Part shown: positions 25,141-30,525 of the stretch, one piece after another
Layout: the number at the start of each line of letters is the position of its first letter
Position numbering within the stretch: position 1 is the stretch's first letter
Assembly (NCBI GenBank): GCA_947476895.1
Contig: CANJRX010000002.1
Coordinates: forward strand, 1-64,000
Direction of reading: 5' to 3'
DNA length: 64,000 bases
Source of the DNA: Fidelibacterota bacterium
GTDB lineage: Bacteria; Pseudomonadota; Alphaproteobacteria; Rhodospirillales; Rhodospirillaceae
The notes under the pieces: generated by a model
What the model saw: the letters and a program-made list of their open reading frames with translations, nothing else
Told to the model about the DNA's origin: nothing
Database searches by the model: none
Program-made: the position numbers and the translations under genes

Positions 25141-26132
25141 TGTTGCAAGGTCCGTAAGGAGTGCGGCACGTGCTCTTCTAACCAAAGCTTCAGGTCTGCC
25201 AAGGCGGGATGGGCTAGGCACATGTCCATATAGCGCCACAGGCGCGGCATGTGGGCGAGATAGTGCGGCTTGTTATCGCGCACCTTCAGGCGCGCGAAAG
25301 TGCCGATCACGCGCACATGACGTTGCGCAGCCATAACGGCCCAGGATGTCGCGAAGTCAGCCGGCGTAATGGCCCGGAAAGCCGCGAGATAGCGCAGCTT
25401 CATCTCGGCAATGAGATGTGGCGGCACATCGCGCCGCGCGTCTTCCAGCAGCGACATCAGATCGTATGTGACGGGACCTTCCACAGCATCTTGGAAGTCG
25501 AGAATACCGACAGACTTGATGCCGGAGCGCCCCGCGACCAGCAGCTGATTGTCGATGTGATAGTCGAACAGCACCAGCGACGTGGGTACTTTCCAGGCCA
25601 GCGGCAAAACCTTGCGCCAAATGTCTTCGAAGGCGGCAAGACTTGCAGCAGACAACGGCTTCGCGCCGACCATCGGTAAATACCAAGTGTGAATGCGCCC
25701 CACTTCTTCCAGAAGGCGCGGGATGCCGTAAGGCTTCACGCCTTCGGGCACGGCATCGGGCAGTTTATGCAAAGCAATCAATACGTCGATGGCGGGCGCA
25801 TAGAGCGCATGATCATCATGACCGCGGGCGAGCAGGCGGGTATAGGTGTCGTCGCCCAAATCTTCCAGCAAGAGAAGGCCAGCTTCGCTGTCTTCGGCCA
25901 AAACTTCCGGCACCGAAAATCCACGCGCGTGCAAATGGCGGGCGATGCGCACAAAGGGCCGCACGTCTTCTTGCGGCGGCGGCGCATCCATCAGCACCAC
26001 GCGGCCGCGATGATCTTCCAGGCGATCATATTTGCGAAAAGAAGCATCGCCGGCCAAACGGCCGCGCTTAGCTTGGTCCCAGCCATGCCGCTTTAAAAAT
26101 CCAACGATAAGAGTTTCACGTTCCGCTGACAT
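25137..26132 (-). CDS. amgK: Anomeric cell-wall sugar kinase (AmgK-like)
   Basis: The 331-residue protein belongs to the aminoglycoside-phosphotransferase kinase fold. It has a catalytic-loop segment FDYHIDNQLLV and the metal-binding ILDFQDAVEGPVTYDLMSL. AmgK phosphorylates MurNAc and GlcNAc at C1, feeding MurU and bypassing de novo UDP-MurNAc synthesis. The phenylalanine before DYH is unusual. The pair amgK-murU between tsaE and addB is typical of alphaproteobacteria. It overlaps tsaE by 17 bases. Confidence 0.85.
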   Translation of the reverse strand: MSAERETLIVGFLKRHGWDQAKRGRLAGDASFRKYDRLEDHRGRVVLMDAPPPQEDVRPFVRIARHLHARGFSVPEVLAEDSEAGLLLLEDLGDDTYTRLLARGHDDHALYAPAIDVLIALHKLPDAVPEGVKPYGIPRLLEEVGRIHTWYLPMVGAKPLSAASLAAFEDIWRKVLPLAWKVPTSLVLFDYHIDNQLLVAGRSGIKSVGILDFQDAVEGPVTYDLMSLLEDARRDVPPHLIAEMKLRYLAAFRAITPADFATSWAVMAAQRHVRVIGTFARLKVRDNKPHYLAHMPRLWRYMDMCLAHPALADLKLWLEEHVPHSLRTLQQ

Positions 26133-26577
26133 CTCGTCTCACTGCTGCAAGTCGTTCCACCCACGCTTCCCCACCCGAAAGTACTGCATGCCTGCCGGAA
26201 CCGGCGGAGGACAGCGTCACATCGAGGCGCGCGTTGAGCTGAAAGTTACCCAATCGCTCCGGCCATTCAATCAGACTAATACCCGTGGCCAGCGCTTCTT
26301 CAAACCCCACTTCCAACACGTCGTCGGCGGTCTTCAGCCGATAGAGGTCAAAGTGCCATATGGGCGCGGGCTCGGCGTCATAAACTTGCACCAGCGTAAA
26401 AGTCGGACTGACGACTTCTTCATAAGGGTCGGCCAGCTTTTGGATAAAGCCGCGCGCAAGCGTGGTTTTGCCGGCACCCAAAGGCCCCGTGAGGGCGATC
26501 ACGTCACCACGTTGGGCATGGGCCGCGAGTGCGGCGCCCAGGGCGAGCGTATCTTTTTCGGAATCGAGATTGATCAT
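26116..26577 (-). CDS. tsaE: tRNA threonylcarbamoyladenosine biosynthesis ATPase TsaE
   Basis: TsaE works with TsaB and TsaD to form t6A37 in ANN-decoding tRNAs. The 153-residue protein has Walker A GPLGAGKTTLARG (31-43), SPTFTLVQVYDAE and the HFDLYRL motif. It ends with a segment typical for the family. The start ATG overlaps the last base of the preceding DivL-like gene stop (TAATG), indicating coupling. Confidence 0.95.
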   Translation of the reverse strand: MINLDSEKDTLALGAALAAHAQRGDVIALTGPLGAGKTTLARGFIQKLADPYEEVVSPTFTLVQVYDAEPAPIWHFDLYRLKTADDVLEVGFEEALATGISLIEWPERLGNFQLNARLDVTLSSAGSGRHAVLSGGEAWVERLAAVRRDVSGT

Positions 26578-29042
26578 TAAGGTCTGGCCGTAACCGGTTC
26601 GGGCCGTCCGACTTGACGCCCAGACGCGCCGCCTGTCGGCAGCTTGCAGGCGACGATGGTATCGCCGCCTTCGGTGGTGATGTCGAGCCGTCCGCCGTGC
26701 AGTTCAACCATGCGCTGGGCGAGGTAAACGCCGAGGCCAGGGCCGAAGCCTTCAGCCGTTGCATGCCGTACCGCGAAGGTGACTTCGGTGGCCGACGTCT
26801 TCTTGACTGCGAGGTCAATGCGGCCTGTGACGGCGTTTTTAAGCGCACCGCTGACCATGTGATACAGCGTCTGCTTGATGCGCGCGGCATCGCCAATCAT
26901 CCAGCCGGTATCGGCGGGGCAGGTGATGATCAGTGTTGCGCCGCCGCGTTTCACGGCCTCGCGGGTCATAGCGGCGACGCGCTCGACCACTTCGCGGATG
27001 TCGAAGGAATCAAGATGCAAAGTTTGCTGCCCGGCTTCAACGCCCGACAGATCGCGCACGTCCTCGATTAGGACTTTCAAAATCTGCGCGGCGCCGATGA
27101 TGTCTTGCACGGCGCCGGGCGCTAAACCCTGCACGCCGTTCTTGGTCACCATGCGTGTGGCCAGCAACGTGATCGAAGACACAGGGCCTTCTAATTCAGA
27201 CGCAACGTTGGTGATGAACTCTGAGTGCAGCTTGTTGGTGGCGGTGAGCGCCTCGGCACGGCCGCGCAACGCTTGCGCCACACGCTCGGGAGCAGACACG
27301 TCGTTGTAGCAGAACAGCACGCCGCCATCGGGCAGAGGCACCGAGATGAATTCCAGCACCGAGCCGTCGCTGCGGATGACGCGGCCCTGTTGCGTAGCGC
27401 GGTCGCGGTCAGCTGCAAGCGCCGCCAACATCACGCTGCGATGGCGGGTCCACACCGTTGCGTCTTCGAAGAAATCGCGGAAGGCTTCGATGACCGCGCC
27501 CATGGCGGGGCCTTCGCGCAAAGCTTCCAGGCTCAAGTCCCACAGCTCGGCAAAGGCAGGATTGGCGAGGCGCAGTTGGCCGTCGGCACCAAACACGGCC
27601 ACGGCTTCCTGCAAGTTGTCGATGGTCTCGCGCTGCACGGCGATCAAGGTGTTGTAAGAGCGTTCCAGCGCCAGCTTGTCGGTGACGTCTTCATAGGTTG
27701 TGAGCAAGCCGCCCATGGGATGGGGTGCGATCACACGGCGCAAGGTGCCGCCATCCGGCACGTGCAGCACGTCTTCCAGCGGCTCAATCAGCGAATTGAA
27801 ACGCGCGAGTTCTTTTTCTTTGTAGGCCGGGAAGTCGGCGACTTCCGGCAGTTTGCGTTCACCGCGTAGGGCATCCAACAACGTGCCGTAATTGGGGCCG
27901 TCGAGAAGCCAGGCGGGGTCAATCCGCCACAAGCGCGCGAAGGCGGTATTGAAAAAGATCAGGCGTGTGTCGGGTCCGAAAATGGCGATAGCGGTCGTCA
28001 GGCGTTCCAACACGTCGGCATGGGCGGCGGCTTCGCGTTTGACGCGGGTCTCTAATTCTTCCTGACGCGTGATGTCGTAAGCAAAGCCCGCCGTCAGGCG
28101 TCCGCTGCCGTCCGAGAACAACGGTGCTGCGGCTTGCCCATCGGTCGGCGCAGTTGTGCCGGCTTCGACGGGTGATTCGGTGACTTCCATTAAACGCCGG
28201 CTGCCGTCGATCACCATGTGGAACGGTGCGCGTCGTGTTTCAGCAGCCGCGCGTGCCGCCGCGGCCAGGGCGCGGGCTTCACGTACCGCGACGCGGGGTG
28301 CGAGTTCGCGTCCGCGCGCGACCACGTCACCGGCGTTCTTGGCATCGACAGCTTTGACGTAAGCTTTGTTGCAGTAGATCAGCGACAGATCGTCGTCGCG
28401 CAGCCAGATCGGTTCGGCGACACCGTCAAGGGCTGCCCGCAGCAGATTGCATTCGCGCGTAAGGTCGATGGTTTCCTGGGTGAGTGTATCGACCGCGGCG
28501 ACACCTTCGGTCACATCGCTCATCCACACCACGTCGGCCATGGTGCGGCCCTGATCGTCTACGGCGCGCACACCGCGCGCTTGAATGCGCCGGCCCGTGC
28601 CGACATGGGTGAGATCGATTTGAAAACCGTCGCCGCCGCCGCGCAATATATCAACGGCGGTTTGCAGGCGGTCCAGGGACGCTTGGTCGAAGCCTTCTTT
28701 GACTTCTTCGAAGCTCGCGTCAAACCCCCGGAACAGATCGAGCAGCACGGCGAGGCGGCGCGAACAGTGCCCACCTTCGCGGTAGGTCGGCAGGGCGACC
28801 CGGCCAGCGTCATCATCGGCTGCCGGCTGGTGAAACCAGACGAAATGGCCTTCGGGCGCGGTTTCCAAAGCTGCTTGGAGGGCGGTGTGCGTATAGCGGG
28901 CCTGTCCGGCCGCGCGCTCGGCTTTGCGCCAGTGGCCATGCTGACGCCACAGAGCGATGCCCGCCGGGGGAACCAGCAGCAAAACCGCGACCAGTCCGGT
29001 GATCACCGGCGGCGTCAGCAGTTCCGAAAGATCGCCGGGCAC
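26577..29042 (-). CDS. divL: DivL-like multi-PAS sensor pseudokinase
   Basis: The 821-residue protein has an N-terminal membrane segment (about 13-33), several PAS modules between about 55 and 580, and a histidine-kinase-like core. In the H-box FITNVASELEGPVSSI, Ser615 (bases 27198-27200) occupies the phosphoacceptor place, where kinases have His and Caulobacter DivL has Tyr. The catalytic domain is also degraded: the N-box reads HMVSGALKNAV, the G1 D-x-G is lost (VRHATAEG), and only GPGLGVYLAQ remains. It is next to tsaE and ahcY, as DivL relatives often are. A role as a signalling scaffold is inference. Confidence 0.72.
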   Translation of the reverse strand: MPGDLSELLTPPVITGLVAVLLLVPPAGIALWRQHGHWRKAERAAGQARYTHTALQAALETAPEGHFVWFHQPAADDDAGRVALPTYREGGHCSRRLAVLLDLFRGFDASFEEVKEGFDQASLDRLQTAVDILRGGGDGFQIDLTHVGTGRRIQARGVRAVDDQGRTMADVVWMSDVTEGVAAVDTLTQETIDLTRECNLLRAALDGVAEPIWLRDDDLSLIYCNKAYVKAVDAKNAGDVVARGRELAPRVAVREARALAAAARAAAETRRAPFHMVIDGSRRLMEVTESPVEAGTTAPTDGQAAAPLFSDGSGRLTAGFAYDITRQEELETRVKREAAAHADVLERLTTAIAIFGPDTRLIFFNTAFARLWRIDPAWLLDGPNYGTLLDALRGERKLPEVADFPAYKEKELARFNSLIEPLEDVLHVPDGGTLRRVIAPHPMGGLLTTYEDVTDKLALERSYNTLIAVQRETIDNLQEAVAVFGADGQLRLANPAFAELWDLSLEALREGPAMGAVIEAFRDFFEDATVWTRHRSVMLAALAADRDRATQQGRVIRSDGSVLEFISVPLPDGGVLFCYNDVSAPERVAQALRGRAEALTATNKLHSEFITNVASELEGPVSSITLLATRMVTKNGVQGLAPGAVQDIIGAAQILKVLIEDVRDLSGVEAGQQTLHLDSFDIREVVERVAAMTREAVKRGGATLIITCPADTGWMIGDAARIKQTLYHMVSGALKNAVTGRIDLAVKKTSATEVTFAVRHATAEGFGPGLGVYLAQRMVELHGGRLDITTEGGDTIVACKLPTGGASGRQVGRPEPVTARP

Positions 29043-29127: not shown

Positions 29128-30525
29128 TTAATAGCGATAGGTCTCAGGCTTGTAGGGGCCTTCCGCGGGCACGCCGATGTAAGACGCCTGTTTGGCGCTC
29201 AGTTTGGTCAGTTTGGCCCCAACTTTGGCAAGGTGAAGCTCGGCCACCTTCTCGTCCAGGTGCTTCGGCAGGACGTAGACCTGCTTTTGGTACTTAGAGT
29301 TGTTGGTCCAAAGTTCGATTTGCGCCAGAACCTGGTTCGAGAACGAGGCGCTCATGACGAAGCTGGGGTGGCCGGTGGCACAGCCCAGGTTCACGAGACG
29401 GCCTTCGGCCAAGAGGATGATGCGCTTGCCGCCCGGGAATTCGACTTCGTCCACCTGCGGCTTCACGTTGTGCCACTTGAAGTTCTTCAGGGCTTCCGTC
29501 TGAATTTCGGTGTCGAAGTGACCGATGTTACAAACGATGGCGCGGTCTTTCATGTTGCGCATGTGATCGACGGTGATGACGTCGAGGTTGCCTGTGGCGG
29601 TGCAGAAAATATCTGCGCGCGGCGCGGCATCTTCCATGGTCGTGACTTCATAGCCTTCCATGGCCGCTTGCAGCGCGTTGATGGGATCGATTTCCGAGAC
29701 CATCACGCGGCAGCCGGCGTTGCGCAGTGACGCAGCCGAACCTTTGCCCACGTCGCCGAAGCCGGCGACCATGGCGACCTTGCCGGCCATCATGACGTCG
29801 GTAGCGCGGCGGATACCGTCGACCAAGCTTTCGCGGCAGCCGTAGATGTTGTCGAACTTCGACTTGGTGACGCTGTCGTTGACGTTGATCGCCGGGAAAT
29901 GCAGGCGGCCGTCTTTGGCCATCTGATACAGGCGATGCACGCCCGTGGTGGTTTCCTCAGACACGCCCTTAATGTTGGCGAGGACCTTCGCGTACCAGCC
30001 CGGCTGCTCTTTATTGCGCTTGGCGATAGAGGCGAACAGGATGGTTTCTTCTTCGTTGGTGGGCTTGGAGATCAGCGACGGATTTTTTTCCGCTTCGGTG
30101 CCGAGCACGATCAGCAACGTGGCGTCGCCGCCGTCATCGAGGATCATGTTGGGGGTGCCGCCGTCGGCCCATTCGAAAATCTTGTGGGTGTAATCCCAAT
30201 ATTCTTCCAGGCTTTCACCTTTGATCGCGAACACCGGCGTACCGGCCACAGCGATGGCGGCAGCGGCTTGGTCTTGCGTCGAGAAGATGTTGCACGAGGC
30301 CCAGCGCACGTCGGCGCCGAGGTGCTTCAGGGTTTCGATCAACACGCCGGTCTGAATGGTCATGTGCAAAGAGCCGGCGATGCGCGCGCCTTTCAAAGGC
30401 TGCTTCTTGCCGAATTCGCTGCGCAGCGCCATCAGGCCCGGCATTTCGGTTTCGGCGATCGCAAGTTCCTTTCGGCCCCAGTCGGCCAAGCCGATGTCTT
30501 TAACGATGTAGTCGCCGGAACTCAT
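29128..30525 (-). CDS. ahcY: Adenosylhomocysteinase (S-adenosylhomocysteine hydrolase)
   Basis: AhcY splits SAH to homocysteine and adenosine and keeps methylation reactions running. The 465-residue protein has the NAD-binding [10 protein letters not shown], the [15 protein letters not shown] segment and the conserved C-terminal KPETYRY. The length and the internal 40-residue bacterial insertion are usual. It is separated from the DivL-like gene by 85 bases. No SAH riboswitch was recognised in the leader. A candidate promoter lies about 80 bases upstream. Confidence 0.98.

Follow-up and report, generated by a model that had tools for sequence, protein, structure and literature searches.

A DivL orthologue with an eroded kinase core in a genome that retains DivK

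The stretch of DNA that we analysed (the window, 64,000 nucleotides) carries a gene for a multi-PAS protein, flanked by tsaE and ahcY (Table 1). Our observations support its assignment as a DivL orthologue. DivL is a bacterial cell-cycle protein that resembles a kinase without being one, and the signal protein that it usually reads is DivK. The best solved relative by sequence is Caulobacter DivL (4q20; E 1.7e-20, with 2.9e-10 for the runner-up) and Foldseek places DivL at rank 1-2 (E 1.5e-15, TM 0.49); by VIA-align Z, DivL 4q20 is only at rank 12, at 17.9, near many other kinases. The gene order ahcY-divL-tsaE is conserved. A same-strand tsaE is found at 55 of 82 loci and ahcY at 60 of 82, in a sample where many flanks are short and the gene is repeated among some loci; at class-level loci, with strand disregarded, the numbers are 14 of 30 for tsaE, 18 of 30 for ahcY and 9 of 30 for both. 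The best match to 4q20, the Pfam names of the neighbours and this conserved order agree with an earlier note on this DNA, which had placed a DivL relative next to tsaE and ahcY.

Table 1. Features of the divL locus in the window (positions are those of the window; residues are those of the window DivL).
Feature	Position	Strand	Basis or remark
tsaE, downstream neighbour, conserved	26116..26577	-	Pfam TsaE 124.8 bits
divL orthologue with eroded kinase core	26577..29042	-	821 aa, GTG start, stop included
ahcY, upstream neighbour, conserved	29128..30525	-	Pfam AdoHcyase 498.2 bits
N-terminal long helix, residues 11-60	28863..29012	-	AlphaFold full length; hydrophobic stretch, likely membrane anchor (by eye)
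Alpha/beta unit 1, residues 65-176	28515..28850	-	PAS-like by predicted secondary structure only; low confidence
PAS unit 2, residues about 212-323	28074..28409	-	Pfam PAS_4 at 209-294; pLDDT low in parts
PAS unit 3, residues about 350-452	27687..27995	-	Full-length AlphaFold; PAS_7 second stretch, position not given
PAS unit 4, residues about 480-581	27300..27605	-	PAS_7 at 474-587; full-length AlphaFold
DHp hairpin, residues 594-671	27030..27263	-	HisKA below Pfam cut-off; AlphaFold, hhalign
Putative former DivK~P docking module, residues 615-650	27093..27200	-	Contact residues as given in PMC4211667
Ser615, opposite DivL Tyr	27198-27200	-	MAFFT, hhalign
Glu618 (DivL Arg553)	27189-27191	-	Contact-position alignment
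CA (HATPase_c) domain, residues 678-802	26637..27011	-	HATPase_c above cut-off 26.4; AlphaFold
Gly732, opposite N-box Asn	26847..26849	-	MAFFT, hhalign
His760, opposite G1 Asp	26763..26765	-	MAFFT, hhalign
Deleted ATP lid site, short loop of residues 762-769	26736..26759	-	Continues into GPGLG remnant of G2 box

The open reading frame is real and contains all of the strings on which the earlier note was built, namely the acceptor-site letters FITNVASELEGPVSSI, in which Ser is residue 615, and HMVSGALKNAV, VRHATAEG and GPGLGVYLAQ. A pseudogene or frameshift artefact was ruled out by divL matches (E <= 1e-20) in 57 of 61 genomes, the window's own counted, and by dN/dS, which across ten within-genus pairs stays between 0 and 0.38 in each of four regions. 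An intact DivL paralogue elsewhere in the window's genome was likewise rejected, as none of the four other matches exceeds 43.1 bits or 28% identity. The window DivL reaches none of the NCBIfam equivalog cut-offs among the best 25 of 37 families listed, and PADLOC gave no result. The DivL of a related genome (G007) is divided between two ORFs, L024 and L051, with a break near residue 330 that is either real or an assembly error.

Pfam and AlphaFold together give a DivL-type layout, with an anchor and several PAS domains ahead of a DHp-CA core. PAS_7 scores 87.1 bits in two stretches, and PAS_8, PAS_4 and PAS also match; alpha/beta unit 1 has no separate Pfam stretch among the best stretches listed. 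The signature of the core is faint. HATPase_c lies barely above its cut-off (26.7-26.9 bits versus 26.4; rank 31 among 32 matches in the window's genome) and HisKA, at 15.6 bits, falls under its cut-off of 26.9. The AlphaFold model of the core (mean pLDDT 78, pTM 0.73) nevertheless has the DHp hairpin and the CA fold, with a seven-residue loop, residues 763-769, replacing the lid. The full-length model, with a pTM of 0.33, is uninformative for domain packing.

The profile-profile alignment from hhalign (100% probability, E 9.8e-54) agrees with MAFFT on the positions of Ser615, Gly732 and His760 and on the gap at the lid. The Tyr acceptor of Caulobacter-type DivL and its N, G1 and lid (F box) motifs are therefore missing from the window protein. 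The earlier note had placed Ser615 at the phosphoacceptor position, where neither alignment puts a His or Tyr, and its loss of the G1 Asp also holds in both, as does a loss of the N-box Asn. It had called the lid degraded; the loss is confirmed but the wording is not, since the lid is deleted, with six residues compared with 19-44 in 85 intact DivLs and a mere loop in the AlphaFold model. Catalysis is implausible in a core that has lost its acceptor, the N-box Asn, the G1 Asp and the whole ATP lid. The core is very unlikely to bind ATP or to autophosphorylate and, judged from the alignments, the window DivL would be a non-catalytic pseudokinase, as the earlier note proposed, a reading that we hold with high confidence.

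To place these losses we scored 153 aligned sequences for five core features: a Tyr or His acceptor, the N-box Asn, the G1 Asp, a lid of at least 18 residues and G2. The thresholds were our own choice, and the genomes are often draft or metagenome-assembled and not independent of each other. When L203 (a repeat of L030) and L233 (a second copy in G117) are omitted, 85 of 151 DivLs, 4q20 among them, score 4-5 and are termed intact; the acceptor is Tyr in 69, His in 8, Phe in 5 and Val, Ala and Gly in one each. The window DivL scores 1. In a quick tree built on the PAS region, with 141 rows, no bootstrap and partial rows (L024 and L034 among them) omitted, it lies inside a clade of 32 rows with an SH-aLRT of 100, in which every member scores 0-1. 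This clade is nested among Tyr-type DivLs, the adjacent outside row, L027, being intact with Tyr. Its lids have 6-14 residues and its acceptors are Ala in 12 rows, Glu in 6, Asp in 5, Val in 4, Ser in 2, Phe in 1 and Thr in 1, with one row lacking a core. Over the whole tree the core state changes a minimum of 14 times. The suggestion that the combined loss is unusual for the family is accordingly right only in part: DivLs with an acceptor other than Tyr, or with a core that is degenerate or absent, turn up repeatedly, as these 14 changes show, and published cases are the degenerate long DivLs of Rhodobacterales (PMC9430884) and the Ala acceptor of Magnetospirillum (PMC4211667).

Four observations from this survey stand apart from the window's clade or at its margin. 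Eight DivL orthologues (L073, L079, L080, L083, L086, L218, L236 and L240) combine a His acceptor with all of the scored ATP-site features and may be active kinases. The Tyr acceptor of DivL is less universal than is stated in PMC4211667. Outside the order, L264 (G095) is a separate case of a Ser acceptor, with a 27-residue lid, a score of 2 and DivK in its genome. Two DivLs of the same family as the window's, L029 (G022) and L071 (G023), stop ahead of the core, and no reading frame of the DNA fetched for them yielded one; G022 has a partial DivK match.

The most informative loss is that of the DivK~P docking surface, which the earlier note did not mention. Caulobacter DivL is reported to bind DivK~P via its DHp domain, with R553A, T557N, Y562A and H579E each weakening the binding 8-15-fold and Y550H not weakening it (Childers et al., PMC4211667); three more contact positions come from modelling. 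All seven contact residues besides the acceptor differ between Caulobacter and the window (R553E, T557S, G561L, Y562L, L565R, H579A and A582D), the window residues other than Glu618 being S622, L626, L627, R630, A644 and D647. At positions 553, 561, 562, 565 and 579 none of 87 intact DivLs shares any window residue; Arg553 is present in 83 of them, Gly561 in 86, Phe or Tyr562 in 86 and Tyr or His579 in 86. T557S and A582D say little, because Ser557 is a conservative change (1 of 87) and Asp582 occurs in 11 of the 87. Arg553 is retained in 6 of 29 clade rows compared and Glu553 is the commonest residue, in 15.

We took the length of the hairpin as the stretch from the acceptor up to the output-helix Asp. 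It comes to 47 residues for 84 of the 87 intact DivLs and to 45 for both Caulobacter and the window. Several clade members have 40-44 residues and two other branches 32-36. In four same-genus DivLs only 24 residues are left, some 23 fewer, and the docking hairpin is mostly removed. The changed docking residues, together with the excised hairpins, lead us to infer that sensing of DivK~P has been lost. An altered yet working contact with DivK is possible in the window DivL, because its hairpin has the Caulobacter length.

Selection is concentrated elsewhere in the protein. Amongst 17 rows (16 from the genus and one from a sister genus) the mean pairwise identity is 0.77-0.87 in the PAS regions, reaching 0.87 in each of residues 331-460 and 461-590, compared with 0.61 in DHp and 0.58 in CA. 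In intact DivLs it is DHp that is most conserved (0.56-0.59 versus 0.27-0.47 for PAS); their CA, at 0.50 in the same order and 0.42 in the remaining ones, does not clearly exceed PAS. Across 25 full-length clade members 209 of 531 columns are invariant in residues 60-590 and 10 of 231 in residues 591-821. The ten genus pairs gave dN/dS values of 0.04-0.09 for PAS, 0.01-0.19 for DHp and 0.10-0.35 for CA by a simple Nei-Gojobori calculation in which pS is frequently > 0.4, and CA is the fastest-changing region in most pairs. The DHp stem and CA are under selection and may have a further function.

DivK itself is retained, a point that the earlier note also lacks. The window's genome (G000) encodes DivK (best PDB match DivK 1m5t, 1.7e-53), CtrA (NF045991, 400 bits versus 350) and ChpT (PF10090, 29.7 versus 22.9). 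Amongst the 19 same-genus genomes, this one included, DivK is found in 18, as a partial match in G014 and G017, and is missing in G005, which is 71% complete; absence is uncertain where a genome is incomplete. ChpT is found in 17 of the 19 and CtrA in 15; G010, which is 97% complete and has DivK with an eroded DivL, gave no CtrA match at E <= 1e-70. DivK is under strong selection, with dN/dS of 0.007-0.055 in nine pairs, and of 16 aligned DivKs from the genus 15 keep all seven of the residues that the published model places opposite DivL, the exception being Leu21 to Val in G010.

The kinases of the circuit are less evenly represented. CckA scores > 650 bits against NF046020 in 14 of the 19 genomes, in some without a full N-terminus; G013 gives 495 bits, G000, G015 and G018 < 400 and G017 none, and the cut-off of 1000 is reached in none of the 61 genomes. 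In G000, which is 97.7% complete, only about 256 C-terminal residues of CckA were found (C11:12249-13013; L189, L195), which is either a real truncation or an assembly fault. Because so little of CckA was found, a CckA-directed role is unproven in the window's own organism. No DivJ/PleC-like kinase was detected in G000 at E <= 1e-42 with NF050805 among the 19 of 30 candidates scored (best scanned 1.2e-39), while 17 of the 18 other genus genomes have one to four each; this is a hint only, as the model is a loose indicator that also matches unrelated controls and whose cut-off is reached in none of the 61 genomes.

Loss of the DivL core has previously been linked to the absence of DivK. DivL without a kinase domain is said always to accompany DivK absence (Brilli et al., PMC2877005, data not shown there), species without DivK are said frequently to lack DHp-CA (Childers et al., PMC4211667) and, in Rhodobacterales, DivK is placed as lost first, followed by a degenerate long DivL and then a short DivL (PMC9430884); one Rhodobacterales species has a short DivL with a probably transferred DivK (PMC9430884). 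The rule that core loss equals DivK loss is contradicted in the window's family, where DivK, in some cases as a partial match, accompanies 24 of the 28 eroded DivLs. In the 32-row clade DivK is present in 21 of the 22 genomes with known status. Outside the family the published association is seen, with DivK accompanying 67 of 80 intact (score 4-5) but 5 of 13 eroded DivLs (score 0-2; Fisher p 0.0012, relatedness ignored), a count that omits nine score-3 genomes and L074, L081, L203, L233, L285 and L288 and scores weak DivK matches (45-53% identity) as absent. Tree-aware pairs run in the same direction (4.3 versus 0.2 of 10, median p 0.125). The window's family is not alone, since G056, G095, G104, G129 and G153 also combine an eroded DivL with DivK. 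Amongst the matches listed from the open-licence literature, judged by title or the start of the abstract, none reports loss of the DivL core or docking site with DivK kept. Erosion of DivL is itself already known and what differs here is the retention of DivK beside it.

We also compared the window DivL with known systems. Caulobacter crescentus DivL (4q20; PMC4211667) shares with the window protein the N-terminal anchor, the PAS units and DHp-CA, and kinase activity is expected in neither, but it retains four boxes (N, G1, F and G2) as well as the DHp docking of DivK~P, whereas the window DivL has lost its acceptor, the N and G1 motifs, the lid and the docking residues. The Caulobacter CA is described as dispensable (PMC4211667). 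In the degenerate long DivL of Oceanicella and Albimonas and the short DivL of other Rhodobacterales the core has decayed or gone and PAS is kept, as in the window (PMC9430884, PMC2877005); the likeness is one of description, not of sequences, and in those lineages the decay is said to have followed the loss of DivK, whereas the window clade retains a strongly selected DivK. The short PAS-only DivL lacks both core and DivK, while the window has DivK and a core that persists as sequence. Magnetospirillum magneticum DivL, known by its acceptor alone, has a non-phosphorylatable Ala like much of the window clade (PMC4211667). RetS-GacS (PDB 7n0e, 6dk7) is a mechanical analogy only, and no orthologue of the window DivL.

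We consider it probable that the window protein is a hollowed-out DivL, non-catalytic, blind to DivK~P and with a PAS-based role that is probably directed at CckA. The kinase core of the orthologue would have been emptied into a structural stem, and the stem and lidless CA may serve dimerization or kinase-kinase contact. The PAS half would most likely act on the CckA-ChpT-CtrA phosphorelay, with DivL as a DivK-independent activator or scaffold. We infer this action on CckA because the constraint sits in the PAS domains, because these are reported as necessary for CckA binding (PMC11500502) and because DivL is essential in Hyphomonas neptunium, where DivK is described as dispensable (PMC7200025). 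Retention of DivK alongside docking loss suggests that the circuit has been rewired, and DivK may persist by serving other partners, be it further kinases or CckA reached directly. A course of events opposite to the published one is conceivable but unlikely; in it DivL would have been the first to change, by ceasing to read DivK, while DivK, under continued selection and with an unaltered docking face, would have taken another target, possibly CckA in the way of Osp, a single-domain regulator in Rhodobacter sphaeroides.

Other explanations deserve consideration. DivK might still regulate the window DivL through a re-evolved docking surface of co-evolved, charge-reversed contacts. The very strong selection on DivK, a hairpin of Caulobacter length and the prevalence of Glu553 in the clade would fit such a surface; the DivK face, however, has no compensating change in the genus except that in G010, and of the four genus DivLs without most of the hairpin three are in genomes (G002, G006 and G013) with DivK, at 90-93% identity. 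We judge this improbable. It is also unlikely, if slightly less so, that the core is simply decaying to a short PAS-only DivL with no function of its own. The truncated DivLs of G022 and G023 and the rapid change of CA in most pairs could be read as stages of such decay, but dN/dS for DHp and CA stays at 0.01-0.35 across the ten pairs and an open frame runs through the core in the aligned genus members.

There is scarcely any case for Ser615 as a functional phosphoacceptor in a serine kinase-like adaptation. Serine is chemically phosphorylatable and is also found in two further genus DivLs, G016 and G007 (L024, outside the tree), but the closest relative of the window DivL, at 82% identity, has a different residue, as do most members of the clade, mainly Ala, and the N-box Asn, G1 Asp and lid needed for ATP are all missing. 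We reject it on these grounds. Ser615 looks like drift inside a clade that had lost its acceptor, and the special weight that the earlier note gave to Ser is not justified when Ala outnumbers it 12 to 2 in the 32-row clade.

The hollowed-out, DivK-blind DivL that we favour bears on how the family is understood. Loss of the DivL core has been tied to absence of DivK, and from this it has been argued that sensing DivK is what the core exists for (PMC2877005, PMC4211667 and PMC9430884). A clade with a strongly selected DivK but a dismantled docking site separates the loss of the core from the loss of DivK, and raises the question of what else DivK does. The natural series of Tyr-type, lidless, hairpin-less and core-less DivLs provides a way to identify the indispensable parts of a pseudokinase.
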